From contig NC_049984.1 of the NCBI RefSeq assembly GCF_000003815.2, positions 5,667,258-5,731,257 of the forward strand: 64,000 nt of DNA, in the 5' to 3' direction. A program made the position numbers and the translations under genes. The stretch comes from Branchiostoma floridae. Lineage: Eukaryota; Chordata; Leptocardii; Amphioxiformes; Branchiostomatidae. Below, in pieces: positions 26,401-48,915 of this stretch. Within the stretch, counting starts at the first letter, position 1. Each line of letters opens with the position of its first letter. The notes below the pieces were generated by a model. The model saw nothing but the letters and a program-made list of their open reading frames with translations, had not been told where the DNA came from and searched no databases.

Positions 26401-29242
26401 TCTATCAACTCACAAGTGTTTCCAGGTCGTCAGTAGTCCACGAGAAATAAGATGGACCCTGAATGCTGCTTGTGATCACAAGTTGTCACTACCTGGGCTT
26501 TCACTAGCTGCAAAGGACAGAGAACCTAGCCCGGAGGACTCAGATGTTACAAGCTCTACTCCTGATGGAGCGGATTCGCCTAGTAAAATACTAGCATCAA
26601 ATCCAAGCGGAGATGGCTGTCAATCTTCTGTGACGGCAGAAGAAGAAGAGAAAAATACATCACCAGCTGCTGAAACCACATGTACAACAATGGAGGCAGA
26701 CACGGCTGTCCATGAGAACGATACTCCAGAGAGTCGTGCGGATGATTGCAGTGATAACACCGTCAGCAGTTCCCAGGATGAAACGTCGGCTGTTCAGCAT
26801 GTCGTCAGCTCTGGCAGTGGTAACAACAGCTGTCACACCTTGAGCATGATCCCTGAAGAAGTGAGACAGCAGGATGAAGAAAGTGATGCCATGTTTCCAT
26901 CAACACCTTACTTTGAGGACTGCACTGCTTACAAAAACCCACAGGTGTGTAAAGGGGTAAGTTCTGTAAGTTTTTGTTCGTTTATGTTATTCTTTCAGTT
27001 TCCTTCATTTTCTCCTTCTAGTTTGGATGGTGGATTCTTAGGGAATGGGTGTACCAGTATATGTTATAGGGGTTATGAATGAGTGAAAGTGAATGAAATG
27101 ATGCAATGAATAAAGGAGATTAATGAAAGTGAATGAATGATAGTGAATGAATGAATTAATGAATGACTTTTGTATTGAATATCTGAAAATGCTACGATCT
27201 GCTCCCTCCTTAGAGTTAGAATGGTACTACAGTAGAAGCCAGTTAATTGCACACCAGATAATCGCACACCTCTGTTAATTGCACGAAATCCCCAAATCCC
27301 ATGGTGGTGCGGTTCAGTTTAATAACTTCGCTTTGTTGCACCGCTCGGATAATTGCACGAAATATACTGACAATTAGGGTGTGCAATTAAGTGTCTTCCA
27401 CTGTAGTACATTAGCAATGCCATTGTTTTCATGACAAAAGCTTAGTAATGTGACAATAACAGATACTTTTGAATCAGTGAATGCCTAAATGAAATGGTTA
27501 CTTTTCACTTTCAGGCTATCCAAAGCAGCTCTCACAACCAAGCGGAAGAAACGTGCAGACAATTTTTTAGCGAGCATGCACACAAGCAGTCAAAAAGGAA
27601 ACGTTCACACAGTGAGCACTCTGGGACAGAGAAGGGGTCTCATTCCCAGAGCTCTGATGAGTCCATCATACCCCCCTCCCCCCAGGAGGAGCAGAGGTCA
27701 GACTTGGTGACCTTCGCCAGAACTCGGAGAGCACTAGCTATTCCTCACACCTGTGGAAAAGGTATAGGTCAACGTACATTTATTTTTGTGAGAATTTAAC
27801 TTCGCAGTAAGAGTGAAAAGAATATTTCAGCTGTGTTTTATTTTAAGTTCATGGTTAAAAAACATGATACAATTCTAAAGGAGGTTTTCAAAGAGTTCAC
27901 TTAATATCTTTTAAGGGAAGTTACTTCACACAACTTTTCACCCTGTGGCAGTGGAAGGAGAGAGATGGTCCCTGCCCTCCAGTACTTTACCATAGATAGT
28001 GGACAACAGCCCATTGCACTGTATGACTTCAAAAGGCTATGGCACTACCTTTACCTACCTTTTCTTTTTTTCTTTTCACCACAAGAAGTGGACTCTCTGT
28101 TGGAAGGAGGGGAAGACGCGATTGTGAGTGACTCGGACAGCGACAGCGAGAGCACAGTCCTGTACTACGAGCAGAATGACGAGGATTCAGACACGGAGTC
28201 TTATGTCATCCCAAACTCCCACGATAAGGACGACTCCTTCAACAGTCTTACTGGGCCTAAGGTGTGTCCAAATCTCCTTGTTTGTCAGAAATGGGTGTCT
28301 CAGGGCTTGAAATACTGGGTGTTTATTCACTTTTGTGCCATGAAATTAGAGCTTTGATCCTGATTTTTGACTGTGGTCGTGTGGATGTGTAGGTACCAAT
28401 GTATTTGTGTAGGGATATGTAATTGTAAAGGTACTACATATGGTGTACACTAGCATATCCTTGACATTCGATTTTTATTTGTTTGAAATATTGTCATCTT
28501 CGTCAGTTTGAGGTGGTTAACATGTTGTTAATTATTTTTATAATCTTATGCTCTGAATAGAGGCAGTACGGTTTCTGATTAAGTTTTGCTGATATTCTAC
28601 TTCACTTTAAGTTTTATAAGATGTACATCGTAATTAGTGGTGCGTACGTAAAGCCTGGACTTGGAATTGGACCTAAAACTCTTTAGGTCCAAGTCCAAAT
28701 AAAACCTAAATGTTCGGAGCCAAGTCCGGACTTGCAAAAAACTATCTGTCACTTATATTCCCTTTTTTTGTTCTAAATCATCTAAAACCTTCCATAGACA
28801 GTGAAATTTGCACTGGAAAAAGACAAAGAACATTTCGTGTTTACACTGGCTGTATACAATTTGCATATATTTTTCACATTGCATTTCAGTTCATGCTAAC
28901 ATGCAATTTTATATGCACCATCACCCCTCCCCCTCAAAATAGAAAAATTTCTAGCACACATAATATGCAATGATGGGTTCAGGTCCGGACCTGAACCTGA
29001 ACTGCTGGACCTGAATCCGGACCTGAAACTGAATGAGTTTAGGTACGCACCACTAATCGTAATTGAAAATTGTTGAACTTGGAACTAATTGTTCATGACA
29101 CTGTGCATTCCAGGCCCCAGTAATGGGAGCTTCCATGAGGTCTGCCCTGTGGACAAAGGACCACACGCTGGTGCCCTCCCTGTCCCAGCACCTCAGCTCC
29201 TGCCCTGTCAGGCCTTGTGTGGTACTTCTCCACAGACTCACG
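20439..29242 (+). CDS. TINF2-like: TINF2/TIN2-like shelterin protein with added winged-helix domain (9 exons; 3' end uncertain)
   Basis: Predicted telomere-complex scaffold; vertebrate TIN2 bridges TRF1, TRF2 and TPP1 in the nucleus. Exons: 20439-20577, 22333-22538, 23110-23226, 23861-24073, 24437-25701, 25861-26944, 27515-27761, 28086-28261, 29114-29242. All junction phases agree (1,0,0,0,2,0,1,0), giving about 1192 codons with no internal stop, against about 450 in human TIN2. The donor after 24073 (GAG then GTTGGA) is weak; reading through it adds VGA and a stop, which would yield a TRFH-only form. The last exon ends at a good donor (ACG then GTAAGG) but also reads through to TAA at 29282, so it may be terminal. 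Otherwise a final exon could lie in the gap at 29985-30084. Confidence 0.8.
20667..21558. mobile_element. Foldback transposon with about 250-bp inverted arms in TINF2-like intron 1
   Basis: The left arm (about 20667-20925) and right arm (about 21285-21558) are inverted copies. They share the GGTATTACGTGGTATTACTT motif, TATATGTGGGGAACACATATG and a GC-rich GCCGCGCGGGGCAGCGGC segment. The loop between them is about 360 bp and non-coding. The T-A-T-T-A-C repeats form a small tandem array (GGTATTACTT) in each arm. Confidence 0.75.
22020..22180. mobile_element. CGCGGT-type MITE in TINF2-like intron 1
   Basis: Inverted ends (AAATGCCTTTAAGTTTGCGG and the near-inverse CCGCGAAAGTTTCTGCATTT) flank duplicated GTGGTTTTATATTCGCGGTG units. 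Same motif family as 9840-9920 and 10280-10460. Confidence 0.55.
22765..22878. repeat. Long near-perfect palindrome, about 114 bp, TINF2-like intron 2
   Basis: TTTCTTCCAGGTTTGATTCA is followed by two head-to-tail ATGTATACATGTAACATGTA units and then by its own inverse TGAATCAAACCTGGAAGAAA. The sequence would form a cruciform in DNA or a long hairpin in the pre-mRNA. Confidence 0.85.
24437..25701 (+). other. TINF2-like: Low-complexity Ser/Thr/Lys/Glu-rich middle exon of the TINF2-like protein
   Basis: One exon of about 421 codons, poor in hydrophobic residues. It has acidic-serine clusters (DSSDVEIVEVSS, DDSDDETQ) resembling SUMO-interacting or CK2-type motifs, and a basic stretch SRKKRRKLEFPEK that fits a nuclear localisation signal. 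No classical F-x-L-x-P TRF1-binding motif was found by eye here or in later exons. Confidence 0.7.
26249..26480 (+). other. TINF2-like: Forkhead-like winged-helix domain inside the TINF2-like protein
   Basis: Residues about 777-854, in exon 25861-26944. The order of features matches a forkhead fold: WVEMVHQAIHSSP (helix 1, compare 'LIAMAIQSSP'), ATLADICQYISENFPRHGS (helix 2 and turn, compare 'LTLSEIYQWIENNFPYY'), AQSVCRVLSTHKCFQVV (recognition helix position, compare 'NSVRHNLSLNKCFVKV'), then RWTLN (compare 'YWTLD'). The invariant N-S-x-R-H-N of true FOX proteins is not kept, so it is divergent and may bind protein rather than DNA. Human TIN2 has no such domain. Confidence 0.7.
27070..27180. 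repeat. GAATGA-rich simple repeat
   Basis: Imperfect array of (GTGAATGA)n and (GAATGAAT)n in the intron after the winged-helix exon. Confidence 0.7.
27230..27404. mobile_element. MITE with TA target site (family D, copy 1; pogo-like ends)
   Basis: Begins CAGTAGAAGCCAGTTAATTG and ends with an imperfect inverse, GCAATTAAGTGTCTTCCACTG. It is flanked by TA on both sides and contains repeated AATTGCACGAAAT. The second copy, at 52484-52657, has a matching empty site at about 30.44 kb, which confirms its boundaries. Confidence 0.75.
27515..29242 (+). other. TINF2-like: C-terminal exons of the TINF2-like protein with TIN2L-like motif
   Basis: Exon 27515-27761 holds a basic KQSKRKRSHSEHSGTEKG stretch (possible second nuclear signal). 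Exon 28086-28261 is acidic (SDSDSDSES, EDSDTESYVIP). Exon 29114-29242 reads WTKDHTLVPSLSQHLSS, resembling the TKFDTLIPTLCEYL segment near the end of long human TIN2, which also follows a DSDEEE acidic run. The order acidic run then T-L-(I/V)-P-(T/S)-L motif is shared. This comparison rests on memory and needs alignment. Confidence 0.6.
28635..29055. mobile_element. hAT-type MITE with 8-bp target duplication
   Basis: Ends are TAGTGGTGCGTAC and GTACGCACCACTA. The 8-bp ATCGTAAT is present immediately outside both ends (28627-28634 and 29056-29063), as hAT transposases leave. The interior has inverted GGACTTGGA/TCCAAGTCC and GGACCTGAA blocks and no transposase. Confidence 0.85.
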
Positions 29243-29705: not shown

Positions 29706-29984
29706 CACAAAATAAAATCAACCCTTAGGCTGAGAACTCTAAAATTGCCAGTGAAAGAAACAACATTCTTCTCAAGAATGTCTCGAACACCAGAGATCTG
29801 AAGCGTTCCTGATGCTGCATTGTCAGATCTCTTCGAACTCACTTTAACTAGACTAAAGGTGATTTAAGGGCACCTGGTAGAACTATGAAAGTCAATGTTA
29901 TAGGCAATGTTACAGAATTTTTCTTAAAATTTCTGTTGCAAGATGATTGAATGTTGACTGGTTGCAGTAAAACTGTTTGATGCA

Positions 29985-30084
29985 NNNNNNNNNNNNNNNN
30001 NNNNNNNNNNNNNNNNNNNNNNNNNNNNNNNNNNNNNNNNNNNNNNNNNNNNNNNNNNNNNNNNNNNNNNNNNNNNNNNNNNNN
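29985..30084. other. Assembly gap of 100 N
   Basis: Exactly 100 Ns, a conventional placeholder, so the true length is unknown. It lies just downstream of the TINF2-like gene and just before a segment duplicated at 50.3 kb. A final TINF2-like exon or a larger piece of the duplication could be missing. Confidence 0.98.
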
Positions 30085-30129
30085 GGCAACTCCCTTCCCA
30101 GCAAAGTAGGACCTCTAAATATCATGTAC

Positions 30130-31322: not shown

Positions 31323-31899
31323 AGGGGCGTTCAATAAGTAATAACTCTGACCCACTTTCAGTTGTCTGATCTAGATGAAATTTTGCATGTGTAATGATTC
31401 ATATCTCTATAGTTTATGTTGCAAAACAAACTCTGAACTAATTGTGGTTTTTGATTTACTGGTGTTTGAACTGAGTTAGGTGTGAATGGACCAGGTGTGA
31501 AATGGAGCCAGTTGAGCGTCGCGCAGTGATCTGGTTTTTGTATTTGAAAGGACGCACACCAAAGGAGACTTTTGATGAAATGAAATAAACTTATGGTGAT
31601 GATGCCCCATCATATGACCTTGTAAAACGCTGGCATCCTGAATTCAAACATGGCCGGAAGTCTGTGGAAACAGCTCCCAGACCTGGTCGTTCCTCTTCTG
31701 CCATTGATGAGGCATCTGTTGGAGGACCAACCTGGGGTGTCCTACAAAAACGGTGTCCAGAGCTGCATCAAACGATGGGAGAAACGCATAACTCTGGGTG
31801 GTTCCTATGAAGAGAAAGACTAATAACTGTGCCAAGTTTAATTAATCTCCTGCTATGGGAAATGAGTCAGAGTTTTTACTTATTGAACGCCCCTCGTAT
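31323..31899. mobile_element. Decayed, internally deleted mariner transposon
   Basis: Inverted ends CGAGGGGCGTTCAATAAGTA and TACTTATTGAACGCCCCTCG sit inside TA dinucleotides. The interior keeps fragments of a mariner transposase on the + strand: an N-terminal helix-turn-helix piece (ERRAVIWFLYLKGRTPKETF, then LVKRW..EFKHGRKSVE and APRPGRSSSAID), then a jump to a C-terminal piece (NGVQSC.KRWEK..TLGG). Stops, frameshifts and the loss of the catalytic centre make it non-autonomous. Confidence 0.88.
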
Positions 31900-34097: not shown

Positions 34098-34152
34098 ATG
34101 AGAGGCCAACTTGTCATCGCTGGGGCCGCCTGCTGTCTGCTGTTTGTTTCAG
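34098..34152 (+). other. Signal-peptide exon of the chimeric channel
   Basis: Encodes MRGQLVIAGAACCLLFVS, a short basic start, a hydrophobic core and small residues, completed by G-L-A in the next exon. It ends in phase 1 at a consensus GTAAGA donor. Secretory targeting is inferred. Confidence 0.85.
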
Positions 34153-37100
34153 GTAAGAAATGTAACGTTACCTACAAAGTCTGTTTTCGTTTATTTTTAT
34201 TTGTTCCGCACAACGGTTAAAGTTGCGTGAGGCCTACGTCACATTTCCAAACCGGGCCCGGCTGGGCAGCCTTTGGGACAGTAAAGATTGATATAACGGT
34301 TAATAGGGCCTTCACACTGAAACCGAGTTAGCAGGAATCAAGCAGAACCAGCCGGAATGAAGTATTTGCAAAATTCGTGTGGGAATTCCAAATGGACCTT
34401 ATATTCCCTTCACACGAGAAGGAATGAATCCAAATCCAGTCAGAATGAAAAGTCTTTTCTATTCCTGGGAATTCGTACAGTAATCGAGAAATTCTTACTG
34501 CATTCCAGATATTCTTTTGGCCACATTTGGGCAGGATTCGAAGTGGCTTGTCGTTTCGGTTGTCTATCGAATGAGATAAGAATGTTTCGAATAATGTTGG
34601 AATGCCGCAGAATGCAGTTCTAATGCAGTTAGAATAGTTAGAATCCACTTAGAATCCACTTCGAATGCCATTCGATATTTCTCCACTTCGAACGCACCTC
34701 GACAGTTTTTAACATGTCAAAAACTTTCGGGCCAGCCAAAAGAACGGGCACGAATAGCTGGAATACAGTAAGAATGTCTGGAACACACTAATTGCCAGGA
34801 ATATGTCAGGAGTAGAAAAGAATTTTCATTCCGAAAGCATTCCGGCTGATTCTTGCTCTCGTGTGAAGGGGCCTTAAAAGACACCAAACTCCACAAGACG
34901 TAAAGCGGTGTATATTTTTACCTAACGTAACATTTTCAAACCTGGGCCCGGTCCCATCCGAGAGCACGCATCTACTGAAACTATTGTTTTTATGTGCTCA
35001 TTTTCACTTGAGTCGAGTGGGGAAATAGGTGTTAAGTGCCTTCCCCGAGGGCACAACATTGGATCCTGCTTAGCTAGGGATTAGAATTCGGAACCTTAAC
35101 ATCCTAGCACTTGGCAATGTTGCTACCTTCAAACACCTCGTGCATCGCACAGAAATATTTTTTTCAGTACAAATTGGTATGTACGTATGCAGCTAAAACC
35201 AGTCTACAGCATCCTGTTGAGACTATATCTATAACTGTAATTAAAAGAAAGATATCTAATGATATTTACAAAATTTTGACAAAAACAGGCCCTTGGAAAT
35301 ATTCATGAAGCCATAGCTTATCACTGGAACCCTCTAAGAAAATGGTCTCATCAGGAGATTGTTGTGCAACTTGTCTCCTTTCCACCCATATGTTTTGTAA
35401 GTTGGAAGCATATTGTCTCAGCGTGCACAACCTTATTTTAAAAAGTACTACAATATTTAGACTTGGCAGCTGCAGATGTGAAATCTGATCTTCTTGTTGT
35501 GATTTGTGAACAATATGGCCAATTAACTTGTTGACATAGCACCCTCACAGGGGGGAGCAGACTGTCTGGCCAGAACAATGGGTTCACGGCTTGTTTACAC
35601 GGTCACCTGGCTCTGGCTTACCTGCCAGACGCAGCTTGGGTTGCCTTTAAAAATAATGCACAAACATGTTTTCGGGCATTAGTGGTGTAAATAATTCTCT
35701 TTACCCTTTTACAAAATTTCAAGTACAGTTGTATAACACTACACTAGTTTCCAAGAAAATTATGGTCAGGCCTATGCAATATAGAGGATTATACAAATTA
35801 CAGCAATGCATTTGGTGATCATAAAACTAAGCAAAGTGTACATGTGTATCCGCAATTCTAACAAAGGAAACAAACATTTCTTAGTCAGTCCAAAGCAAAC
35901 CCAGGATGGATAAGGAGTTTGTAAGGAATTCTTCTGAAATTTCTGATGTTTGTTTTTTCTCTCCAAGTCCATAGAATAAATCACTGAAAATCTATTTGAG
36001 TCTTGAATCCCTTTTTGTATTAAAGACGACTATCTTGCGCAAGCGAGCAACTCCTCATTAGTTTTTAAGCCAAGGAAAACTCAGCTTTCTGTGAACTGTT
36101 CGGTACAATAATGTTTTGCATAACGAAAAGCTCAGTTTATGGTATTCAAATATACAGTGTGTGTAACAATATATCGGATAAGAGGCAGCAAGTTTGGCTA
36201 TATGATCAGCGTCTAAAAACTAGTGTCTAGATTTTGTAAAGAGAGTCTAAATGTATATTAAATGAGAGTCTATGTCGGGTTAGGCGTGTGCTCCATCCCC
36301 CTCCAGTGACTGTCCAGCTTTGACTTGAAGGCATTGACAGAGTTCGGCAGCTACAACTTCATCCGCGGGCAGACAGTTCGAGGTGTTGATTGCCAGATGC
36401 TGAAAGAGTTTGATCTGGTTGGCTTCTTGTAATCTCCAAGCAGATCCTGCAATGACATAAAATAGTACCAAACTGGCCAAGGTGTGAAGTCAACCAAGAG
36501 GTGTCCATTTGCCCCAGGTAGCGAAACACCCCCTAAGGCTTAGGTCACATTTCCAAACCGGGGTCCGGTCGGGCAACTTTCGGGGGGGGGGGGGGGGGAG
36601 AATTATATAAAAGACATCGGAATACACAAAATGTCAACATAAGATCCATGGACATAATTTGTGTATATTTCTATGTATACATTTTTATTTTTCGTTTCTT
36701 TAATCATGCCGGCCGGGCACCGGTTTGGAAATGTGACCTATAGCTAGGCCTAAGCCGGCTTCACTCCTCTGCCAGCTTTTGATAGTATCTTATGCTACCG
36801 TGGGATCTGCTTGGAGATTAGGTTTCTTGGTCATACACAGTTATGGTATGTAATCTGTGTTTGACATGCATTCGTGTATGTCCACAGGCCTCGCCTTGGA
36901 CTGTATTGTAGGAAACGGGGCATCCTACCGAGGAACAGTCTCTGTGACCAAAACGGGAAAGACGTGTCAAGAGTGGGACAGTCGGACGCCGCACGAACAC
37001 AACTATGTACCTGCTGACTATCCGGCATCAGGGCTGGAGCAGAACTACTGCCGGAATGTTGGCGACTGGCACGAGGTCTGGTGCTACACCACGGACCCCA

Positions 37101-39557
37101 GCTCGAGATGGGAGGGGTGTGACGTGCGAGCCTGCGGTAAGTTAGATCCTGTAAACCCGAGCAAGTATACGTGTCCTGTATGAGGTTCTCATTTTTTCTG
37201 CTCCCAAACAAATAAACAAATGATCTGTATTTTCCCCAGTTAAGTGTACTAGAATTGATCTACTAGTTAATTCAATTTCAATGTATTATATATCTATATA
37301 AAAGCTTGTGTGATTTTCTTTCCAATGCTATCAAACTCATTACCATTGTTAACTCATGGAACACACACTAGGCCTGCTTACGAGGGCTTACGAACAATAA
37401 GTTTTCGGCCTCACCAAGAAATAACAAGCACAATTCAGATTTTCAGGCACAACTTCATAGTGGTGAAGTCTTTTATCAATATCCTCCAAATTTCAAATTA
37501 TTGGAGTCATTACTTTCCCGGCATTCGTTTTTTCTGAATTAGAAGGTAAGTGGGGAGAAAAAGAAGGGTGAAGTGTGATCAGACATTTTGACCTCACACC
37601 TCAGGTTGCAGATAAATTGTCCACCTTTTTTTTCGTTATCCCTTACCTAACGTTACTGGGTGTCGCCTGCAACATAATGATCACAATAATTTGAACTTTG
37701 GTACACATTGATATAAGACGTTATACATGTACGTGGGGTTATCAATAAGTTCTCGACTTTACCGAGAAATAATAAGCACAGCTGAGATTTCGAAGCATAG
37801 ATGTCAAGTATAGAAGATCTAAAGTCTTATGGAAATATGTACCAAAATTCAAATTAGTGTGATCATTACTTTGCAGGCGACACCCAGTAATGTTAGGTGA
37901 GGGAGAAGGAAAAAAACGTGGACAATTGACCTGACCTGAGTGTGTGGGTCAATTTGCGCTGCTGGAAGTTAGAAACCCAATTCTTTTTGCTTGAAATAGG
38001 AAGAGAATCATTATCAAACATTTTGACAATGTCTTTTGTTAATTTATGGCATGGGGAACTAGACCCACACATGTCTGATCACAATTCACACAACTTTTTC
38101 TCGCCACTTACCTTCTAATTTAGGAAAAACGAATGCCTGGAAAGTAATGACTCCAATGATTTGAAATTTGGAGGACATTGATAAAAGACTTCATACTATG
38201 AAGTTGTGCCTGAAAATCTGAGTTGTGCTTGTTATTTCTTGGTGAGGCCCTCGTACGTGAGTGGGCCACCAAAAAAGTGCCCAAATTTCCCCGCTTCTGT
38301 TCAACTCTGTATCGTCCGGTTGTTATGGCTGCAGGTGTCAATGATTAAATCAACCTCCTTGATTAAATCAATCCCTTGTTCAGGTATGTAGGATGGTGTC
38401 CCTATATCTCACCACATTGGAGTTGTCTGCAATGATGACGAGTCTTGTTCCGCCCCACATCATGACTCTTCCTCCACCAAGAAACGCTGAAAGTTACTCT
38501 TGCCGTGATAGCGTGAGGCTCTCCTGCCACCTCCACGCGTTGATTCGGCCATATCCAACTGCCGAAAGGGCAAATATACTCTACTCAAATGAGCTGAAAC
38601 AAACTTGTATGTTCTGTATACCCAACGTGAAGTGAAAAGAGGATTGATATCATTGAATCACTGACACACGCGCCAATACCAACAGAACGATAGTATTGAA
38701 CAGAAGCAGGGAAATTTGGGCACTTTTTTGGTGACCCACTCATGATCACGTAAGCGGGTCTAGTGCTTGTTCCATGAGTTTTCAATGATGATGACTTTGA
38801 TACCATAGGAAAGGGAATCACACAAGCTTTCTAGAGAGAAGCACCTGGTATGAAAACAGAACAATAAATACTAGTACTAGTGTCCCGCTTGCAGAAACTA
38901 CTGAAAAAATGTAGCTACTTTTGTATCACAGGTAAAGGGCACATTTTCTTACGTACAACATAACATAACATGAAGCCTTAGACATCCAGGCAAGAGGATA
39001 CATAGTACAAAAGATATTCAAGCAACTCTGTATTTTAATTCCCCCCAAAATTCCAAATGTTGTGGATTGACTGTATGATGTTTGTTGTTTCAATGGATAA
39101 CTGAAGGTGAAAAAAGAACTCATTGAAACCTAGAAATGTAGACGCCTAGAGAGAAGAAAACTGTTGATCAACTTCAATCGAAGACATAAATGTGCTACTA
39201 ACAGTCCTTTCTCCTGGGACAGGTGTGAATGCCGCACTGGGGAAGACGGCGCAACAATCAAGTATCTCGTCTAACGGGGCCCCCAGCCGTGCCGTGGACG
39301 GGAATTACGATCCCAACTACTTCGCTGATACCGCTTCCTGTACACACACTGAGGAGGAAGCTAATCCCACCTGGTGGGTGGATCTTGGTCGACCGATCAT
39401 GTTTGGCAGGTATGTGTATGTTATGGGTGCATATGTACATAATCGTTAAGTCCACACAAACACGTACCCACTTACGCACGCACGAACACACATACACACA
39501 CACAAGCACGCACGCACCGCGGCACGCACACACGTACACAGAGATAGAAGAGAGAGG

Positions 39558-39620
<63 letters not shown>

Positions 39621-42600
39621 GTACATGATGCATACGTGCACTCACACACACGCACAGACATGGGAAAGTAAGCAACAAATCTGTATGTTGTTTGAAAATG
39701 TCAATGACAAGCGCCATCGCATTGCCTTTAATTTGATTTGATTTGATTTATTCCGATGTATAATCATGAGAAATACAGCCAGGGCTACCCAACTATCAAC
39801 GGCTAGCCCTTGATAACAATACAATATGTAATATTCAATAACAGCATTAACGATACAGGTAACTTTGGCTACAGAGGCGATCCGTGTTTACAGGTTGACT
39901 AGCAGTCGTACGATCTGTGATATCAGTTTATGATACAAGTAATATGACATCTACAGGGTGATCATCATTAACCGCGGGGACTGTTGTCAGGAACGACTCA
40001 ACCCCTTCAACATCCACATCGGGGATTCCGAGCTCATCCACACGAACCCCAAGTGTGGAGGTGACCATCAAATCGACGTGAACCAGCCGGCCATTTCCGT
40101 CCCGTGTGAGGGGATGAGGGGCCGTTATGTGGGCATCCGTCTCCCCGGCACCCCCAGAATACTGACTCTGTGTGAAGTACACATATCGGCGGGTAGGTCT
40201 TCAACATCCTACCGTCACTCTTCATTGTTCATGTATACGTTTTAAAGGGTGGTTTACAAATTTAAAAAAATATCAAAAATGTATCAAAGAAATGTATAAC
40301 TAGAGTTCCACGAACACATACCTTTGCCAAATAAACCAGGTTTGTTATGTAGAATGATGTCTGTAGACATAAATGTGTTACTCATTACATTTTATTTTAT
40401 ATGCCTGGAGTTGGGTCCCATTGCTTATACAAATTAGATCCCTATTTACATAATAATATTGAATTGTATCAAGCATCACTTAAGTTATCAGCATACCAAA
40501 ATCATGATGATCCTTTCATCCTTCTTGAAACCGGCTCCTGCAGTTCAAGGAGCAAATTAGCTGTTAATTTGCATAACTAGTATCTCATTGTGTAAGTTTT
40601 TACTTAGGCTATCTACATACCAAAAATCATGACGATCTGTCAACACGTTCTTATTTTCCATTAATTATGCAAATGAGATCATCATCTGCATAATTAATAA
40701 TGTATTGATATTTCTTTCTTTCTCAGCTACAAATGTGACAAGTTTGAAAGTCCTATAAAGGAATGCAGTGGATTTACAAACTTTCCTCATTAATTATGCA
40801 AATTAGCTGCCAATTTGCATGATTAGAATTCCATCATGTAAGTCTTCCCTTTGGCTATCTACATACCAAAAATCGTAACGATCTGTCAACACGTTTATAT
40901 TTTCTCATTAATTATGCAAATGAGGCCGTCATTTGCATAATTAATATGCATTGATATTTCTCTCTTTCTCATCTATATATGTGACAAGTTTGAAAGTCCT
41001 ATCGTGAAATGCAGTGGATTTATAAACTTTCCTCATTAATTATGCAAATTAGTTGCTGATTTGCATAATTAGTATTCCATTATGTACATTGTTACTTGGG
41101 CTATCTACATACCAAAAATCATGACGATCCATTAACACGTTCTCTAGTTATTCTCGTCCAAAGTTTGAAAGGAAACCGGAGCCTGCAGTTCTAAAAAAGC
41201 CGCTAGGGGGTCCAAACTCACAGTACTTACTCTCTGCCCCAGGGGCTATCTACCACTCAAAAATCATAACCACAGCATGTCCAGGACACGAGATATCAAA
41301 AATTGAGGTTCTGCTGCAGTACCTTAGCAAGCCGCTAGGGGGTCCATTATCGAACTTGACCTTCGTTTTCTCGACCCCTACCCACCTACCAAATATTATC
41401 GGGATCCATCCAAGGCTTCTCGAGTTATGCTGTTAACAGACAGACACACACACAGACACACACATACACAGACTCACAAGCCCAAAACATAACCTTAACC
41501 ATTCTGGCAAAGGTAATAAATATAGTAACGTTACTGTGAGACTGTCTCAGCACTAGATTTCCGTTGCTGACGACGACTTTAGCACTGGTGTTCCAGTGCT
41601 GAGAGAGGGACCCGCTACTTTTGTAATACTAGTATTTGCATTCCTGGCTGTGGCAGAATGAATGGCATTGATAATGAATGGATGAATGAAAACCTTTATT
41701 GTACATTTCTGTCCCACTTGGCTAAGCACCGGACACATGTTAACAACCATATACATATTTGTGTACAAAAAAACGTCTAATCTACTCCAGTACATTCCAA
41801 TAATGAGAACATGGTTGGTGCTGTTCACAGAAGTCATGAAGTGCTCCCCTGGGTATTTCCGCTGTGCAAACAAGTACACGTGCATCCTGTCATGGAGGCG
41901 TTGTGACGGGACCCCAGACTGCTCGGACGGTAGTGATGAGGAAGAATGCGGTAAGGCAGACATCACAATTTAATACATGCAGTTCTGGCCATCGAATACT
42001 CGCACGAGAAGTACTGAAACATTTCATTATAAAAACTTCTTCTCCCCGAGAAAGTCACAAGGGTCTGCTGACAAACATGCAAAGAAACACCGGATGTTGA
42101 CCAGCTCAAACTCCGAGAAGAGCTCTAGTACATGAAACCAACCCTCGGCCCCAGTTTTTACCGGTGCCATAAGTATCAAAGCTGGCTGACTCCCTTTGGT
42201 CGGCTTAACTCCGGCTGAGTCCCTTTGGCCGGCTATATTCCTTGTCCAGCTTTGATACTATCATTATGGCACCGGTAAATCTACCTGGAGATAGCTTCAA
42301 AGCGACGTGGATGAATGACATGGAATCCGTTTGATTCAATTTTCAGTGTGCTCGAGAATTCATAAGGATTTCCAGATCAGAAGCAGACTCACCATGTTAC
42401 CAAATCAGCTGCACCAGGCGACGTTCGACGATATACAAAATTCCACTGCCGTGGAGCTTCTCAACAGTTCCTACAGCATCGCGGGGAAACACCATCCGGA
42501 GCTACGAGAATTCGTGTCTACTGTACTTTTCCCGAGGTGCAATTTGACTAAAGAGAACATGTAAGTAGCCAATACCTCTATTGAACTAATCCCCTGAAGA

Positions 42601-45600
42601 AGATCTACCGCAGGCAAGACATGGTCAAAATGGCTAAACACCATCCGGTGTCAATTGGATAGTATTTAGCCCTTTGGGTGCAGTTTTGCCCCCAGTAGAT
42701 TTGCTTGGAGTAGTCGAGAATCCGCAGTAACGATCTCTTACCTCTAGCTGCGTCCGCGTATGGTCATTAATCAGTTATTTTTCATCAAGTAATATTGACC
42801 CTCAGCCATTGATGCCTTCATTCTCTAGCTTTCTTTGCCGACAGCATCACATTGTGATGTATGTATATATCCTCATGATATCTATCGATTGGTACTGAAT
42901 GTAGCTCATTCCTTTAGTGGCAGACAGCTGCTGCCGTGCCGTTCTTGGTGCGAGGAAGTGTTCAGCATGAGTGGTGACCTGATGAGGGACCTTCTGCCGC
43001 CATGTGAGGTGTTCCCGTCACCACCGCACCGCTGTTGGAACCCGGAACCAGATAAGAATGAAGGAAGCACGGAAGGTGGGAATCAGAACCGATTGTTTTC
43101 GCCATGCGACTGTCAGGTAAGCCTGAGTATCAGCCTGGTGAGTTTACCGTGGCTCCCATACTCACCCCTCACCAACCAACTTTACCGTGGCTCCCACTGA
43201 CTCAACTTGGTTGGTGAGCGTGAGTATGGGAGTCAATATGAACCAACCAGACTGATACTCAGGCTACTGTCAGGTGGTCGCATGATTTCGTATTACCTAT
43301 CCGTTATCGTTCCGTTTGGCTATTTATACATGCCAGCCCGACATGTACTCTTCAGTCTTCACTAGCGCTATTGGTTTCAACTGAGCCGTTAATTGCAGTA
43401 CCAAACCAACCGGCGTTCCACCATTTATCATCATGATATAGTAATGGCATGACAAGCCTTTTTTTTATCAATTGGCTGCCTGGCTTGTAATTGATTGATG
43501 TTTTTACACCTTTTGAATCATATCAACCTACTTGAATGAAAATTGTGAGCTATAAACGCCGTACCTCAGTAGCACCTGAAGCATAATCTTGTCGAAGATA
43601 AAAACGTCGGCTTGTATAGACATTCATTTAATATGTGTAGTTTGAAAATAAATATTGATTTTCTTTCTTTCTCTCCCTCAGTTTGTTACTATGGCACTGG
43701 CATAAACTACCGTGGAACTTGGAACACAACTACTTACGGGGCAAAGTGTCTTGAGTGGTCAGCCGATAACTACAAGACTGATTACCCCTGGGCTAACCTG
43801 GACAAAAACTACTGCCGCAACCCTACCGGTCTCCAGCGGCCATTTTGTTTGACCGAGGACGGTAGCAAGGAGGAGTGTGACGTCATCCCCTGCAGTAAGT
43901 CAATGTCTTGTTACAAAAAAGACGTGATACTCTGCACCTTAATGATTTATTATTACATTAACCAGCATGTTACATTTTGCGCATCAAAAGCAATTATGAA
44001 AGATGCAATATGGTTAAAATCATACTTTTTTGCTGTTTGAAGTTTATTTAGACCCACAATTTGGCTTACCAATAGTAGATCACAGTACATTGCAGTTATT
44101 CTTCCTTACCAGAATACATAACTTTAGAAAAAAATGCATGACATACAGGAAAATAACAAGTACATATACATGAGCAAATATCTCATGATTTGACAATTTC
44201 AAACCATTCTGTACTTGCTGTTTTCGCTTGATGACATGATCTTTATAATGATTCCGATATATCTTTAAAGTTTCTATTGTGCAACATTTAGACTCCGTCA
44301 GCTGTGCAGACAGGGGGCCGCCAACCAACGGTAAGAGAACTCCGAGCAAAAGGTTTTACCTGTTGGACGAAAAGGTGACGTACACGTGTAACGATGGCTA
44401 CATGCTGGAGTACGGTTATCCTCGGGAAGTCAGATGCCAACAGGGGAACTCCTCGTCCGTCGGCGTCTGGGAACATCACATGCCCACTTGTTCAGGTACG
44501 GCTATGAAGGTTAGACATCCAGGTAAACAATATTCAAATACAATTCAATCTCTACAACTGGATAATAAAACGGAGATTTACTAATGGAGGTTTTGCAATT
44601 GAGTGACATCCATCACTCTTCAGTTCATCTTCATTTGTCAGGTGTTTAGTATTTGTCTTTAACTTTCTAAATCCTGCACAACTCTTGGTTTCCACAAGTT
44701 TATTACTTAACATTGTTGAAGAATAGGTTTGACGTAGAAAGGTTATTCATATTGTTTTTTTGTTTCTTAAGATTTTTATGCAGCCGTTTGTAAATAAGAC
44801 AGAGATAATGTTTGGTATGCTATTTTGAAAATTTCCGTTTTTTGGACAAACATGTTCGCGTCCACAGATTGCGACCATAAGCGAACAAAATTACTGTCGT
44901 GGCCAAGAAAAACGTACTAAACAATTCCATACGTACATTGTAATTAATAGCAAAACGCGTTAGGCTATAGCCACCTGTACGGAATTATGTTTTGACATAA
45001 TTTCTTACATGCTTGTTCACCCTCTGTCCAGTTAACTACAAGCGGAGGCTGCAAAAGGAGCTACTAGAGACATACAGTGCGAGTCTGGCACCTGAAGAAA
45101 ATGTCACCATCAACTTCACGGGGGTAGTGGAAGAAATCGTTGACTTGGTAAGTACTATATCTAAGAAATCTTAGGATCCTTTAATTTTCGTTTCCATGAA
45201 AATCACTGAATTATGGTGACTTTATGGGTGATAAGATGCATCAGTACACAACAAGATTAATGTTATGACTTTTTATCAATTTCAGGATGAAAAGAAGGAG
45301 CAGCTTCTCGCTTCTTTGATCATCGACTTTGTAAGTTTGCACATCCGTGTTGACTCTGTAGCCTATGTTGCACAATTTCTCTCTGTCAGTGGCTGACGTG
45401 GACGTTCATCTCTGAGCCAGGAGACTGACTTTGGCGTAGTATTTGAAATTCAGACCAATGGGAGTCTCTGATTCTTTGTCACAATGGACACTTATCATCA
45501 AAGCCTTCAACACCATGGTAACAGGCAGTTCTCAGTCTAGCAATTGGACATTTTTCCACATACCGATGGATCAACAGGATTAGGAGGTCCCCAATTCTCC

Positions 45601-48600
45601 TGACTTGGAGGCGTTCATGATCAAGATCCGGGGGCCTGACCAGTCGCTATTAACTGTTTCAACTTTTTAAATTATTATTTTTTCATTGAACAAACGTGCA
45701 TAACATATGAACATATGAACAAAATCTTATAGTTAATGTTAACTTCTGGTTGAAGCAAAACTGGTAACTTTGTGTTAGGAAGTAGATGTAATCCATGGCC
45801 AGTCATGTCCCTTTGGATCATGGAGAACAACTTTTCCTTGTGACTTCCTTAATTTTTCCTATTAGACATGGTACGACGCTCGGCTGAAGTGGGACCCAAA
45901 GTATTACGGTGATAACGACAGGTTCAGCATTCCTGGCAAGGATATTTGGATCCCACCATTTACTCTCAGGAAGAAGTAGGTGGAAATGCTTTGTTCAATC
46001 AACCAGATTTAGATAAATCAAAGCATTCATCATATTTTTTTCAGTATAAAATAAAGGCCTATGCGTTATATGGCCAAGGTTTCAAAGCCTTTGACTGGAA
46101 AAATATCTTGTCCAAAGCAAGATGCGTTGCATACTTGAGACGAATCGAAGAGACAATGTTATAACCCCTGACAGGTCCAGATGATGTGCCCTGGGAGAGG
46201 CACTTCCCTCATGCGAAAATGAGTATCTAACTTCGAATAGGGACGTCTCTCTGATAGGACACTAAATGGAGGTCGTTAAAGAACTGGCCTACCACATGAG
46301 TCATCGAAAAGCGTAAGGTTCCATTCCGGTGGTAGTGGATCAAGCAAAAATGTCTGTGTATGCAGCTTGTACTGGTCATGATGACAAACCCAGTGTCTTA
46401 CACCATGAGCCGGTTTTCCGGGTATGCAGTAGTGCCAGTACAAACAAACAAAGATAAAAAGTTACAGGAATCTCTTTGTGACCTCCCTTCCAGTGCCAAC
46501 CCCCTCCACCAAGGCCTACCCAAGGACGTGCCGGTGCGTGTGAGCAGCACCGGTCTGGTCCAGTGGAGAGTGGAGACCCTGACCACCACCGTGTGTGAAG
46601 CCAACCCCTTCCTCTTCCCCGCAGACACCATGGAATGCGAAGTCTGTTTTTCTGCAACCACGGCAATCGAGCAAACCATACGTAAGGGTTTCGGATATTC
46701 CAGAGAACTCTGATGTGTTTCTAAACATGGCCCAAAAAGTTTGGACTATTTAACTTGGTCTATCATATTTCTTTAACTGTTGTTTATATGACTGATAGCT
46801 TTCAGTTATTGCAGTTGACTGAATGGAAAGGACGTTTTTCCAATATGATAGATCTTTCAATGGCAATTCTGGAGTGACCAATGCAAATCTTCCTTGGCAT
46901 CAATATGTCCTGCGTCCTATTCTGGTAGCAATATGTCCTAGTGAGACGCCAAATAGTAATTACTCAAGCAACTGGATATGATTCCGGAAAAATCTGCTTT
47001 CCCCATGATGATGTTCCTAAAAATATACAGTTGCTTGAGTAATCGATATTTGGCATATCCTATAACCAGGATGTCTAAACTTCATCGACGTTCTGGTATA
47101 GGGTTTAGACATTTAGAGACATCCTACATGTACTGTATATTAACTACAGAATGCCACGAGGGAAGCTCCGCATCCAATGTGCGCCATCCCTGCGGCTTCT
47201 ACTCCCCAGCAGAAGAGGATGGAGAATGGTACCGGAGTGTTAAGATATCCGACGAACAAAACCAGACGAAGGCGTGCTTTGCCCTACACCTGGCGAGGAT
47301 CCCCAAGTTCCACATCGCCACTACTGTTGGACCCTGCGTCATCCTGATTGTGCTGATGACCATCACCTTCATAATGCCCATAGGAGTGGGAGACCGGATC
47401 TCCTTCGGAGTGACCATTCAGCTCTCTATGGTCGTCTCTCTCGTGTTTGTCACGGAAGTTCTTCCTGTCAAGGGATCTCTGCCATTTTTCGGTGAGCGCT
47501 AGGTGCTTCTTCCACTCCTGATGTCATCACTTCTGCTACACTCTTCCGCTCCAGAACTCCGCACACCTTCCTCTGGGGACCAGAGCCTCTGATCTTCCTA
47601 CGTGCATGCTAGGTGCAAGCACTTGACTTAAACCATGCCATTTTACAAGCAATCATTGAAATACGTTGTAACCACATGCATACCCTTTCTGGTAGCTACT
47701 ACTGGATACAGTGTCACTGACGGAAGATAACGTATGTTATCTGAAACGGCTGGCCGTTTCCAAAAGCATACTCAGTTGCTTGTGAATGAGTCATTACTAT
47801 TTGGCGTATTTTATTACCTGGATATCTAACTACTGGATTTATTATCTATAATTTTCCAGCCACGGTGATCATCGTGTGCATGGGCCTGATGGGACTGTTC
47901 CTCTTCCTCACCTTGGCCGTCATCTACATTCACGGCAAAAAGGGGAGCTTGTCTCCGATGACGAGGGTTATTTTCCTCCGCTACACAGCAAGGTACTGAA
48001 CATTCGTCTGTTGTCCCGGATCATATGATGAAATCATTCATTTACGTCACTTCTTGATGATGCATTTCTTTCAATCTTAGTCGTCAAGAGGTACTAGTAT
48101 ACGGTATAATGAAGGACGTATCTTCGTGGCACCAAAGAAGCTTGAACCTTTGCATGCAGCCTTACTTTGTTTGCAATTTCGTAAGATAGCGTAAATGTTT
48201 CAAAGGCGTAGTGTCCATTTCCTGTTTTCGTTCGTAGGAACGACTGAAAATATGAAATATCTCGAAAGTCACTTTCTAATATAAATTTAGATAAACCTTC
48301 GGCCTTCATGCAGTACAGGCGTACACGTGCTGTGGTACTAGTATGCTTTGCAGACACCTCCACAGTGAGGAACATCATTTCTAAACTGTTTCATCATTTC
48401 CGTAAATAGTTTCATCATGTTGGTGGATCAATCGAACAATCTTCTTCGTTTCACAACCTCTTTTTATTCTTCTGCACCAGTCACCGAAACGTCTGCAGAA
48501 GAATAAAAAGAGGTTGTGAAACGAAGAAGACTGTTCGATGTTTCATCATTTACATAGGATATTACTTCTGGGAGATCTCACGGAGGGCAAGCAAGCCAGC

Positions 48601-48915
48601 ACGGGTGTCGCCTATGAAGATCCCATGACCAACTTGTTTGACCGTGACATGACGTCCACTGGATCCTCGGGAGAGAACGAGCCGATGTTGATGACCACTG
48701 AGGCGGTGAAGAAAGAAAACGAGGACCTGGTCCAGGCTGTGAAGATTGGCATGACCGAGTTGAAGAACGAGATGAAGAAGCTGACCAAGGCAGTAAAGAA
48801 CGAGGAGGAGGTGTCCGAATACACCCTGCTGGCCAAGGTCCTGGACAGGCTGTGTCTGATCCTGTACGTCATCAGCATCGTGGTAGCCATTCCTTTTACC
48901 TTGTCCAAAGAGTGA
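34098..48915 (+). CDS. Chimeric nicotinic-type ligand-gated ion channel with kringle/F-lectin/LDLa/frizzled/kringle/sushi ectodomain
   Basis: Predicted cell-surface pentameric channel. Exons: 34098-34152, 36888-37136, 39223-39409, 39957-40192, 41831-41950, 42347-42560, 42918-43075, 43682-43894, 44292-44495, 45032-45147, 45286-45330, 45866-45975, 46494-46681, 47150-47491, 47860-47992, 48558-48915. They sum to 2928 nt, exactly 975 codons plus TGA, with GT/AG at every junction and matching phases. Module order by residue: signal peptide 1-20, kringle 20-101, F-type lectin 102-242, LDLa 243-282, frizzled-like CRD 283-406, kringle 407-477, sushi 478-545, channel 546-975 with four membrane segments. 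Only one signal peptide is present and none precedes the channel part, which argues for one gene. The donor at 43075 (GAAG then GTGGGA) is the least sure junction but is the one that keeps phase. I know no described receptor of this architecture. Confidence 0.85.
34303..34874. mobile_element. MITE with TTAA at its ends, in channel intron 1
   Basis: Left end TTAATAGGGCCTTCACAC and right end GTGTGAAGGGGCCTTAA are inverted. TTAA at both edges suggests a piggyBac- or Kolobok-type target. The interior is rich in GGAAT/ATTCC words and non-coding. Confidence 0.6.
36541..36742. mobile_element. MITE with GGTCACATTTCCAAACCGG ends
   Basis: Left TAGGTCACATTTCCAAACCG and right CGGTTTGGAAATGTGACCTA are inverted. 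A run of about 16 G lies inside. Half-copies lie near 34228 and 34920. Located in channel intron 1, just before the kringle 1 exon. Confidence 0.75.
36888..37136 (+). other. Kringle domain 1
   Basis: A single phase 1-1 exon, 83 residues, with six cysteines in kringle spacing: LDC, GKTCQEWDS, QNYCRN, VWCYTTDPSSRWEGC, VRAC. The TTDPxxRWE segment is the region that forms lysine-binding pockets in plasminogen-type kringles, so protein binding is plausible. Confidence 0.93.
37297..38835. mobile_element. Foldback element with long inverted arms in channel intron 2 (family E)
   Basis: 37297-37390 is inverse to about 38745-38835 (AAGCTTGTGTGATT against AATCACACAAGCTT). 37398-37545 is inverse to about 38108-38250 (AAGAAATAACAAGCACAATT against AGTTGTGCTTGTTATTTCTT). 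The core 37600-38100 is shared with 32.45-33.0 kb. The interior has no transposase, and the structure looks like nested insertions of one family. Confidence 0.7.
39223..40192 (+). other. F-type lectin (fucolectin) domain, two exons
   Basis: Exons 39223-39409 and 39957-40192 give about 141 residues, the usual length. The first starts with the family's NAALGKTAQQSS..SRAVDGN pattern. The sugar-binding consensus H-x26-R-x-D-x4-R is present exactly: His in SCTHTEEE, then 26 residues, then RGDCCQER spanning the exon junction. The C-terminus CEVHISAG is typical. L-fucose or fucosylated-glycan binding is therefore predicted. Module edges are phase 1; the inner intron is phase 2. Confidence 0.93.
39542..39620. 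repeat. GA microsatellite with flanking CA-rich tract
   Basis: About 30 GA units just after the first lectin exon, preceded by ACACAC/GCACGC-rich sequence (39450-39540). Long open frames through it on both strands are artefacts of the repeat. Confidence 0.95.
40540..41510. repeat. Repeats with many ATGCAAAT octamers, channel intron 4
   Basis: Three diverged units of about 200-240 bp (starts near 40560, 40790 and 41035), each with CTCATTAATTATGCAAAT, an inverse ATTTGCATAATTA, and AAAAATCATGACGATC. I count eight ATGCAAAT/ATTTGCAT octamers between 40567 and about 41070. The tail (41150-41480) is a CGCTAGGGGGTCC-type dispersed repeat ending in CACACAGACA. Confidence 0.75.
41831..41950 (+). other. 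LDL-receptor class A module
   Basis: A 120-nt phase 1-1 exon. Six cysteines and the calcium-cage signature DCSDGSDEEEC are intact (CSPGYFRCANKYTC..WRRCDGTPDCSDGSDEEEC pattern). Confidence 0.95.
42155..42285. mobile_element. MITE-like hairpin between the LDLa and frizzled exons
   Basis: TTTACCGGTGCCATAA and TATCAAAGCTGG are repeated inversely as CCAGCTTTGATA and TTATGGCACCGGTAAA, around a short core with two CTCCCTTTGG(T/C)CGGCT units. Confidence 0.7.
42347..43075 (+). other. Frizzled-like cysteine-rich domain lacking two disulfides
   Basis: Exons 42347-42560 and 42918-43075. Landmarks fit an FZ domain: VCSRI start, MLPNQL, HPELREFVSTVLFPRC, LPCRSWCEEVF, LMRDLLPPCEVFPS, HRCW. Of the ten usual cysteines, numbers 1, 5, 6, 7, 9 and 10 remain; 2, 3, 4 and 8 are replaced. 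These would be the partners of the 2-4 and 3-8 bridges, so the loss is pairwise. The WNT-lipid groove residues cannot be judged by eye. Confidence 0.78.
43119..43268. mobile_element. MITE inserted beside the frizzled-domain exon
   Basis: Ends AGCCTGAGTATCAG and CTGATACTCAGGCT are inverted, with inner CCGTGGCTCCCA and CTCACCAACC arms. ACTGTCAGGT lies directly outside both ends (43109-43118 and 43269-43278), fitting a target duplication of about 10 bp. Confidence 0.75.
43682..43894 (+). other. Kringle domain 2
   Basis: A phase 1-1 exon with six cysteines: VCYYGTG, GAKCLEWS, DKNYCRNP, PFCLTEDGSKEEC, VIPC. The lysine-site DxxxRW segment of kringle 1 is changed to EDGSKEE, so the two kringles probably differ in ligand. 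Confidence 0.92.
44292..44495 (+). other. Sushi/CCP domain
   Basis: A phase 1-1 exon of 68 codons. Four cysteines and the late Trp (VSCADRGPP, VTYTCNDGYMLE, REVRCQQG, GVWEHHMPTC) fit a complement-control module. It directly precedes the channel's ligand-binding domain. Confidence 0.9.
45032..46681 (+). other. Cys-loop ligand-binding domain of the chimeric channel
   Basis: Exons of 116, 45, 110 and 188 nt. The 45-nt and 110-nt exons equal the sizes I recall for nicotinic receptor exons 3 and 4. Landmarks: VNYKRRLQKELLETY (N-terminal helix), TWYDARLKWDP (compare WxDxRLxWxP), KDIWIPPFTL (loop A; the usual WxPD is WIPP), GLVQWRVET, and the Cys loop CEANPFLFPADTMEC (C-x13-C). The aromatic Trp after the Cys loop and the vicinal Cys pair of loop C are not seen, so an acetylcholine site of the classical kind is unlikely. 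Confidence 0.88.
46925..47100. repeat. Hairpin repeat (family C) in channel intron
   Basis: AGTAATTACTCAAGCAACTG and its near-inverse CAGTTGCTTGAGTAATCGAT flank a short loop, then ATAACCAGGATGTCTAAACT. A related copy lies at 47740-47835 in the next intron. Confidence 0.6.
47150..48915 (+). other. Transmembrane domain of the chimeric channel (TM1-TM4)
   Basis: Exon 47150-47491 holds the pre-TM1 strand, TM1 (VGPCVILIVLMTITFIMP) and TM2 (GDRISFGVTIQLSMVVSLVF then VTEVLP). Exon 47860-47992 holds TM3 (VIIVCMGLMGLFLFLTLAVI). Exon 48558-48915 holds the short cytoplasmic loop, a charged heptad-like helix (KKENEDLVQAVKIGMTELKN) and TM4 (LCLILYVISIVVAIPF), ending in SKE. The acidic ring at the inner mouth of TM2 (G-D-R for nicotinic G-E-K) and the Glu before VLP favour cation selectivity, without the extra Pro-Ala of anion channels. 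Confidence 0.9.
48430..48539. repeat. Palindrome just before the TM4 exon
   Basis: ATCGAACAATCTTCTTCGTT and CACAACCTCTTTTTATTCTT are repeated inversely as AAGAATAAAAAGAGGTTGTG and AACGAAGAAGACTGTTCGAT. The repeat ends 19 nt before the exon begins and would form a strong pre-mRNA hairpin close to the acceptor. Confidence 0.85.

Follow-up and report, generated by a model that had tools for sequence, protein, structure and literature searches.

Does the lancelet Branchiostoma floridae possess a gene that joins a tower of extracellular recognition modules to a complete Cys-loop ion channel, or do two neighbouring genes only look like one? This question is raised by positions 34098 to 48915 (+) of a 64,000-nucleotide stretch of contig NC_049984.1 (assembly GCF_000003815.2, positions 5,667,258 to 5,731,257 of the forward strand), here called the window, where a first-pass annotation had read sixteen exons, with GT/AG sites and consistent phases, as a single 975-codon frame. 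On the basis of current results, we are nearly certain that this is one real gene and that it belongs to a real family. We further consider it likely, judging from the sequence, that its product is a subunit belonging to a family of chimeric pentameric ligand-gated ion channels (pLGICs), which we read as modular ionotropic recognition receptors.

The frame was borne out when the gene was rebuilt from the sequence: the 16 exons, once spliced, give 2928 nucleotides, corresponding to 975 amino acids and a stop codon, with no internal stops, and the introns are of the GT..AG type throughout, with compatible phases. The modules follow one another in the order signal peptide, kringle, F-type lectin (F-lectin; two exons), LDLa, frizzled-type cysteine-rich domain (CRD; two exons), kringle, sushi and Cys-loop channel. 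In the channel part, five exons encode the ligand-binding domain (LBD), the last of them also holding the transmembrane segments M1 and M2, and are followed by one exon for M3 and one for the cytoplasmic loop and M4. The modular tower ahead of the LBD comprises 545 residues, and phase-1 introns flank each extracellular module; modules bounded in this way are the usual signature of exon shuffling.

It should be noted that false domain architectures are known to arise when genes are mispredicted (PMC3927609), and that the junction between the sushi exon (44292..44495) and the first LBD exon (44495/45032) is known here from genomic sequence alone. Both points would suit a secreted mosaic lectin and a neighbouring channel gene that a splice model had wrongly joined. 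The family-wide linkage of the modules speaks against such an error. With the channel part as query, at least 57 loci matching the M1-M2 exon, the window included, were identified on 19 contigs of the same genome (513 Mb). These are matches covering that exon, collected by eye, and their number is a lower bound because 98 of 471 candidates were scored; it counts places in the assembly, some of which are perhaps duplicate copies. A query made of the sushi and first LBD exons gave 137 matches, of which 115 fell in the sushi part. Every one of the 57 loci had a sushi module upstream on the same strand at a distance of no more than 35 kb, and in 55 the distance was no more than 15 kb; 57 different matches were used. 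With the 15-kb limit, the controls for upstream opposite strand, downstream same strand and downstream opposite strand were 0, 0 and 2; with the 35-kb limit they were 0, 7 and 4. Among the 95 matches to the frizzled exons, only three, in two places, were not upstream of family channels. Such a match was found upstream on the same strand of 50 of the 57 channels within 35 kb and of 47 within 15 kb, with 0 upstream opposite, 1 downstream same and 2 downstream opposite as controls within 15 kb. The order frizzled, sushi, channel was kept in all 50 loci having a frizzled match, and each of the 22 separate matches to the first LBD exon also had a sushi module upstream. At ordinary nicotinic-type loci, chosen by eye as rows covering the C-terminal part of the LBD, a sushi module was found upstream in only 1 out of 51, and that module belonged to a neighbouring family member. 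Since the module order is conserved at 57 loci, chance is excluded, and the one-gene reading is favoured because two independent genes would hardly have been co-copied so often with their splice phase kept.

Splice sites were compared in upstream DNA tiles from 17 of the 56 other loci. All 17 had a phase-1 GT 4 nucleotides after the last cysteine codon of the sushi module, and an AG/T acceptor in phase preceded the first LBD exon in each of the nine tiles that aligned from its first residue. The junction 43075/43682, which had been singled out earlier as one to be checked, has a weak donor (gtggga), yet a phase-1 GT 31-40 nucleotides after the last CRD cysteine codon was present in 17 of 17 tiles, and the nearest paralog carries an identical gtggga donor at the equivalent of 43075, so that the place of this donor is conserved. 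In-phase acceptors were found for LDLa in 16 of 16 tiles, for the first frizzled exon in 13 of 17, and for kringle 2 and sushi in 17 of 17 each, by a permissive test that accepted any in-phase AG within 45 nucleotides without a stop. Two other sites were tried for the model and rejected: a sushi acceptor at 44302, which breaks the frame (44291/44292 keeps it), and a strong donor near 43117 (CAG/gtaagc), which is in phase 0 and throws kringle 2 out of frame, the phase-1 donor being kept at the 43075 place.

Exon 1 (34098..34152, phases 0-1; all exons are on the + strand) holds the start codon and the signal peptide (MRGQLVIAGAACCLLFVSG...) and ends at a GT donor. Its hydrophobic stretch has a mean Kyte-Doolittle value of 2.6 over residues 5-18. 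This agrees with the claim that the only signal peptide stands at the start of the frame, and between 44402 and 45009 there are 11 listed ATGs, not one of which opens a leader that is hydrophobic on inspection. A separate gene starting before 45032 with a signal peptide of its own, which the first-pass annotation had named as the outcome that would overturn its reading, thus finds no sequence support. Taken with the 57 upstream sushi modules and the phase-1 sushi donor, these data leave the two-gene alternative all but refuted within this genome, and we allow it hardly any chance; the single-gene reading is what the sequence supports.

Further investigation of the extracellular modules supported the names given to them. 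Above the Pfam cut-offs were both kringles (E-value 5.8e-38), Neur_chan_LBD (PF02931; 9.6e-28), Neur_chan_memb (PF02932; 3e-16), F5_F8_type_C_2 (1.4e-15) and LDLa (1e-10). Kringle 1 (exon 2, 36888..37136, phases 1-1) is the variable head module and is 83% identical in the nearest paralog, L055. The F-lectin is divided between exon 3 (39223..39409, phases 1-2; Pfam and MsaFBP32 match) and exon 4 (39957..40192, phases 2-1), the second half containing the fucose motif RGDCCQER. The LDLa module (exon 5, 41831..41950, phases 1-1) was matched in 16 of 17 paralog tiles, the exception being L055, which has runs of N there, and kringle 2 (exon 8, 43682..43894, phases 1-1), a constant module of the stalk, was matched in all 17. 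Two modules of the window gene fell below the cut-off: the frizzled-type CRD (24.8 bits versus 32.1), whose cysteine-poor first half is exon 6 (42347..42560, phases 1-2) and whose second half is exon 7 (42918..43075, phases 2-1), and the sushi/CCP module of exon 9 (phases 1-1; 18.0 versus 20.7). Several cysteines have been lost from this CRD, which does not have the ten of a canonical frizzled CRD. In paralogs, two of the three frizzled domains scanned passed Pfam (those of CUB-headed L043 and L049, with 65.3 and 59.0 bits), that of C-type-lectin-headed L039 also being below the cut-off (28.8 bits), and all three sushi domains scanned passed (23.9 to 40.6 bits). Because the paralogous domains pass, the frizzled and sushi names are right, and the CRD of the branch of the window gene is degenerate. 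Thus the description of six recognition modules fused to a complete Cys-loop channel stands, its two weak members being backed by paralogs. Directly ahead of the frizzled exon, at 42256-42294 (+), lies a brief kringle-like segment containing a stop (YYHYGTGKSTWR, then the stop), which by eye looks like the relic of a kringle exon.

The F-lectin of the window gene matched MsaFBP32 (3cqo) with 3.9e-49. Its fucose motif, H-X26-RGDCCQER, is intact, with the spacing seen in 3cqo, and the cation motif AVDGN is present. In these respects it is like the F-type lectins MsaFBP32 and eel agglutinin (fucose motif H-X26-RXDX4R, cation motif AVDGN); unlike known F-type lectins, it is fused via a stalk to an ion channel. 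A review of F-type lectins prints the spacing of the fucose motif as X24 and describes the F-type lectin domains of amphioxus as numerous and mosaic, with many architectures, and the word 'channel' does not occur in its available text (PMC5712786).

The channel part begins with the N-terminal part of the LBD in exon 10 (45032..45147; splice model and Pfam), followed, according to the splice model, by the 45-nucleotide exon 11 (45286..45330), exon 12 (45866..45975) with the loop D/loop A region, and exon 13 (46494..46681) with the Cys-loop. LBD exons of 45 and 110 nucleotides are known from nicotinic genes, as in the window gene. Exon 14 (47150..47491) holds the end of the LBD, M1 and the M2 pore helix, exon 15 (47860..47992) M3, and exon 16 (48558..48915; splice model and Pfam) the cytoplasmic loop, an amphipathic segment, M4 and the stop codon; exons 13 to 15 were placed by the splice model and the family alignment. 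This alignment had 45 rows representing 44 distinct loci (L011 being the same locus as L055), and 12 loci were without letters in it. With an LBD and a transmembrane domain recognized by Pfam and a Cys-loop with 13 residues between C670 and C684 (both cysteines in 43 of 43 rows), the protein belongs to the Cys-loop/pLGIC superfamily. In M2, the residues at -2', -1' and 0' were G-D-R/K in all 45 rows and in the window gene (D780 at -1'), 6'T, 9'L and 13'V were invariant, and there was no Pro-Ala insert, which is the cation-selective type. By an established rule of the superfamily, an acidic residue at -1' of M2 marks a cation channel. On account of this aspartate and of the type of M2, the channel is very probably cation-conducting, as predicted from sequence.

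Despite this nicotinic-type pore, the family lacks the features of an acetylcholine-binding nicotinic alpha subunit. The tryptophan of loop B (W149 column) was found in none of 42 family rows, the window gene having T, and the vicinal cysteines of loop C in none of the 41 family stretches found; they are also absent from the window gene. In contrast, ordinary channels of the same genome had the loop B tryptophan in 6 out of 6 (for example, CSMKFGSW) and the loop C pair in 5 out of 6 (YECC); L006 and L007, having no alignable channel stretch, were left out of this comparison. Acetylcholine had been considered as the obvious ligand and was rejected after the loop B and loop C check, and it is very likely, on the residues seen, that acetylcholine would not gate the channel through its usual site. 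Two further cysteines appeared to be specific to the family: C687 (exon 13), three residues after the second cysteine of the Cys-loop (43 of 43 rows), and C741 (exon 14), on the strand preceding M1 (44 of 45 rows, the exception, L040, being apparently out of frame there). Both are absent at the same positions from the ordinary channels aligned. By eye, we take C687 (beta-7) to correspond to K145 of alpha-1 and C741 (beta-10) to lie two residues past D200, that is, at T202. In the muscle receptor, a salt bridge between K145 and D200 couples binding to gating. A disulfide between C687 and C741, linking beta-7 and beta-10, is possible; this pair could replace the salt bridge, and such a link would be in keeping with a channel whose drive comes from elsewhere than the classical site. 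In summary, the window gene is like nicotinic receptor subunits in its LBD and transmembrane Pfam matches, its 13-residue Cys-loop, its acidic -1' residue and its 9' leucine, and unlike them in its 545-residue tower, its lack of the loop B tryptophan and loop C cysteines, and its extra C687 and C741.

The missing loop B tryptophan and loop C pair would also be expected of accessory chains that join ordinary nicotinic subunits in a structural or modulatory role, contribute no principal binding face and form no channel alone, and the best PDB match by sequence was indeed a beta chain of the acetylcholine receptor, and thus a subunit other than alpha. Against this stands the tree of channel exons, in which the family formed one clade separate from six ordinary channels (support 100/100), as does the size of the family, which is very large for an accessory role. 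We therefore regard purely accessory chains as unlikely, mixed pentamers remaining compatible with these data. The deep order of this tree is uncertain, because several branches, including that of the outgroup, are long. Ordinary nicotinic-type genes can be densely clustered in this genome: ten LBD matches of this type lie within about 105 kb on one strand of C2 (26.40-26.50 Mb).

What had been described as a single odd gene is in fact a member of a large family, which also includes CUB and C-type lectin heads. The constant stalk consists of frizzled, kringle and sushi modules, usually with LDLa, and the exchangeable heads are CUB, C-type lectin, F-lectin and kringle. Upstream of the 57 loci we found C-type lectin in at least 15, CUB in at least 23 and F-lectin in at least 5, and at least 40 of the 57 had one or more of these. 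The counts are lower bounds, drawn from the best 150 C-type lectin, 150 CUB and 58 F-lectin matches. Controls within 30 kb (upstream opposite, downstream same and downstream opposite) were 0, 0 and 1 for C-type lectin and 0, 0 and 1 for F-lectin; for CUB they were 0, 8 and 0. By Pfam, CUB was present in 9 of the 17 fetched tiles (one with two), one paralog had at least two F-lectin units and another a C-type lectin. The nearest paralog, L055, about 82 kb away in inverted orientation, carries a kringle, its F-lectin and LDLa region being obscured by runs of N. When the head labels were placed on the tree all together, 12 changes were needed versus 27.9 for shuffled labels, and C-type lectin and F-lectin each appeared in more than one part of it. 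Two further places in the genome resembled family members. At C5:4743573-4750838 (+), matches to C-type lectin, frizzled, sushi and the first LBD exon occur without a listed M1-M2 match, and this is probably a 58th member. At C8:9517020-9519587 (+), a second frizzled and sushi set just upstream of the member at 9.53 Mb is perhaps a partial tandem copy.

Could the window gene be a decaying relic without a product? One paralog, L040 (C221:479900-489890), seems to have its M1-M2 exon in two frames with overlapping matches, which points to a frameshift or an assembly error and, if the former, to decay within the family. The window copy, however, has an uninterrupted frame of 975 codons and splice sites that can be used, and the ratio of nonsynonymous to synonymous substitution rates (dN/dS) against the nearest paralog was below 1 in both halves (0.26 for 344 codons of the ectodomain and 0.38 for 263 codons of the channel). 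Decay of the window gene is thus highly improbable.

How, then, might such a receptor work? We suggest that five subunits, alike or mixed, would form a cation pore ringed by five recognition arms, and that the head modules would bind extracellular ligands. Because of its F-lectin head with a fucose motif, fucosylated glycans are the likely head ligand of the window gene. Ligand binding might open, modulate or position the pore, and contact with a macromolecule or a surface would then be turned into depolarisation or Ca2+ entry. Varied heads on a constant pore would act as sensors of different specificity with one output. That the heads supply the main gating input is plausible, though we stop short of calling it probable. 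The earlier proposal that glycan or protein recognition is coupled to ion flux is the reading with the best support, given an intact fucose motif, variable heads, a conserved pore and, in the members examined, loss of the acetylcholine site; the coupling itself we still infer. A role in innate immunity or fertilisation, proposed along with it, is conceivable.

Several observations weigh against this reading of the family as recognition receptors built on one gene. Beyond the GT, the sushi donors were weak in several tiles (for example, gtgatt, gtcatc and gtgttt). Eight of the 57 loci had a CUB match downstream on the same strand, which we tentatively ascribe to tandem clusters, and 17 of the 57 had none of the three head types among the matches listed. 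For the F-lectin label taken alone, the tree showed no clear clustering (in 31 of 500 shuffles the value was as low). The dN/dS differed from exon to exon and was 1.18 in the 30-codon M3 piece. Some members were identical over the 221 columns compared, namely L012 (C8) with L013 (C256) and L023 with L025 (both C16). In 13 of 42 members a tryptophan stands three positions ahead of the loop B column (C-x-x-C-W), so a shifted aromatic residue may exist there. As for the heads, the fucose motif was checked in the F-lectin of the window gene only. Both kringles appear by eye to lack the usual aspartates of the lysine site, which makes classical lysine binding unlikely for them. With these aspartates missing and CRD cysteines lost, not every module need bind a ligand. 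Finally, the heads might merely anchor the receptor. Contig C256, mentioned above, is 39.9 kb long and could represent the C8 locus in an alternative copy.

Anchoring is the chief rival to recognition gating, since proteins built of CUB-LDLa or sushi modules are known to cluster ionotropic receptors or to modulate them. The tower would be a clustering scaffold fused to the channel that only places it, and a small ligand would open the remodelled binding domain. The heads vary more than the stalk does, and the binding domain of the channel has been retained, with dN/dS below 1 in its exons, both of which would fit a scaffold. The pairing of a frizzled with a kringle module is also seen in ROR and MuSK, and modules of all these kinds occur in proteins that keep ionotropic receptors in place at synapses. 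LEV-10 (five CUB and LDLa) and Drosophila Neto (two CUB and LDLa), as well as LEV-9 (eight CCP and WAP), cluster ionotropic receptors or modulate them, according to a review of these proteins (PMC9083331). The family resembles them in that CUB, LDLa and sushi modules are tied to ionotropic receptors, and differs in that they are separate auxiliary proteins, LEV-10 and Neto being single-pass ones, whereas its own modules are in frame on the channel gene itself. On the other hand, varied recognition would better explain the F-type and C-type lectin heads and so large a family, and with the acetylcholine site lost from the members read, no known small ligand is left. We consider anchoring as the sole role of the tower to be doubtful; anchoring and recognition gating could both be true together.

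Comparison with published systems placed the family apart from those described. The bacterial channel DeCLIC has two jelly-roll lobes of an N-terminal domain ahead of a canonical pLGIC, the domain influences gating kinetics, and the 2022 paper on it states that such domains were not observed in any eukaryotic homolog (PMC9897478). As in DeCLIC, extra domains precede the pLGIC in the window gene; unlike those of DeCLIC, they are metazoan extracellular modules of other families, encoded by phase-1 exons and joined to a nicotinic-type channel. Molluscan nicotinic acetylcholine receptors with added domains (dynamin, GAIN) are encoded by 8 and 9 genes in two oysters, and neither 'kringle' nor 'sushi' occurs in the available text of that survey (PMC6896357). 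The lancelet family differs from them in its domains and in having one architecture at dozens of loci. Jaiteh et al. (2016) noted that pLGIC fusions with other domains were known at the genome level only, terminal regions having been discarded from their analysis (PMC4795631). A 2019 study of vertebrate nicotinic receptors that used amphioxus sequences contains, in its accessible text, neither the word 'kringle' nor a mention of such an architecture (PMC6354393). Novel domain combinations have been reported for innate immune genes of amphioxus (PMC2575513). Our literature search, which covered a limited set of papers and no unnamed gene models in databases, revealed no description of this channel family.

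The surroundings of the gene in the window contained other features. A forkhead domain (Pfam 2.5e-10) lies in a long open frame upstream of it, at 25706-27079 (+), and an open frame of 1251 codons at 13539-17291 (+) has many C2H2 zinc fingers, the scan having covered its first 239 residues. The forkhead frame and the channel gene are separated by what is probably an assembly gap, a run of N at about 29983-30085; the window as a whole contains 100 N. The open frame at 31589-31807 (+) resembles, by eye, the DNA-binding part of a mariner-type transposase.

On a broader and more tentative view, the lancelet may carry in its germline a whole repertoire of ionotropic receptors for pattern recognition. 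These would be dozens of channels that share a cation pore and a stalk, and whose exchanged lectin, CUB and kringle heads would turn the recognition of glycans or surfaces into ion flux, the neurotransmitter site being bypassed. If true, at least 57 loci behind sushi modules, many with lectin or CUB heads, would constitute a new class of ionotropic recognition receptor, and exon shuffling would be shown able to re-aim a neurotransmitter channel. It would also become testable whether receptor-clustering modules can be fused in cis to the channel they serve.

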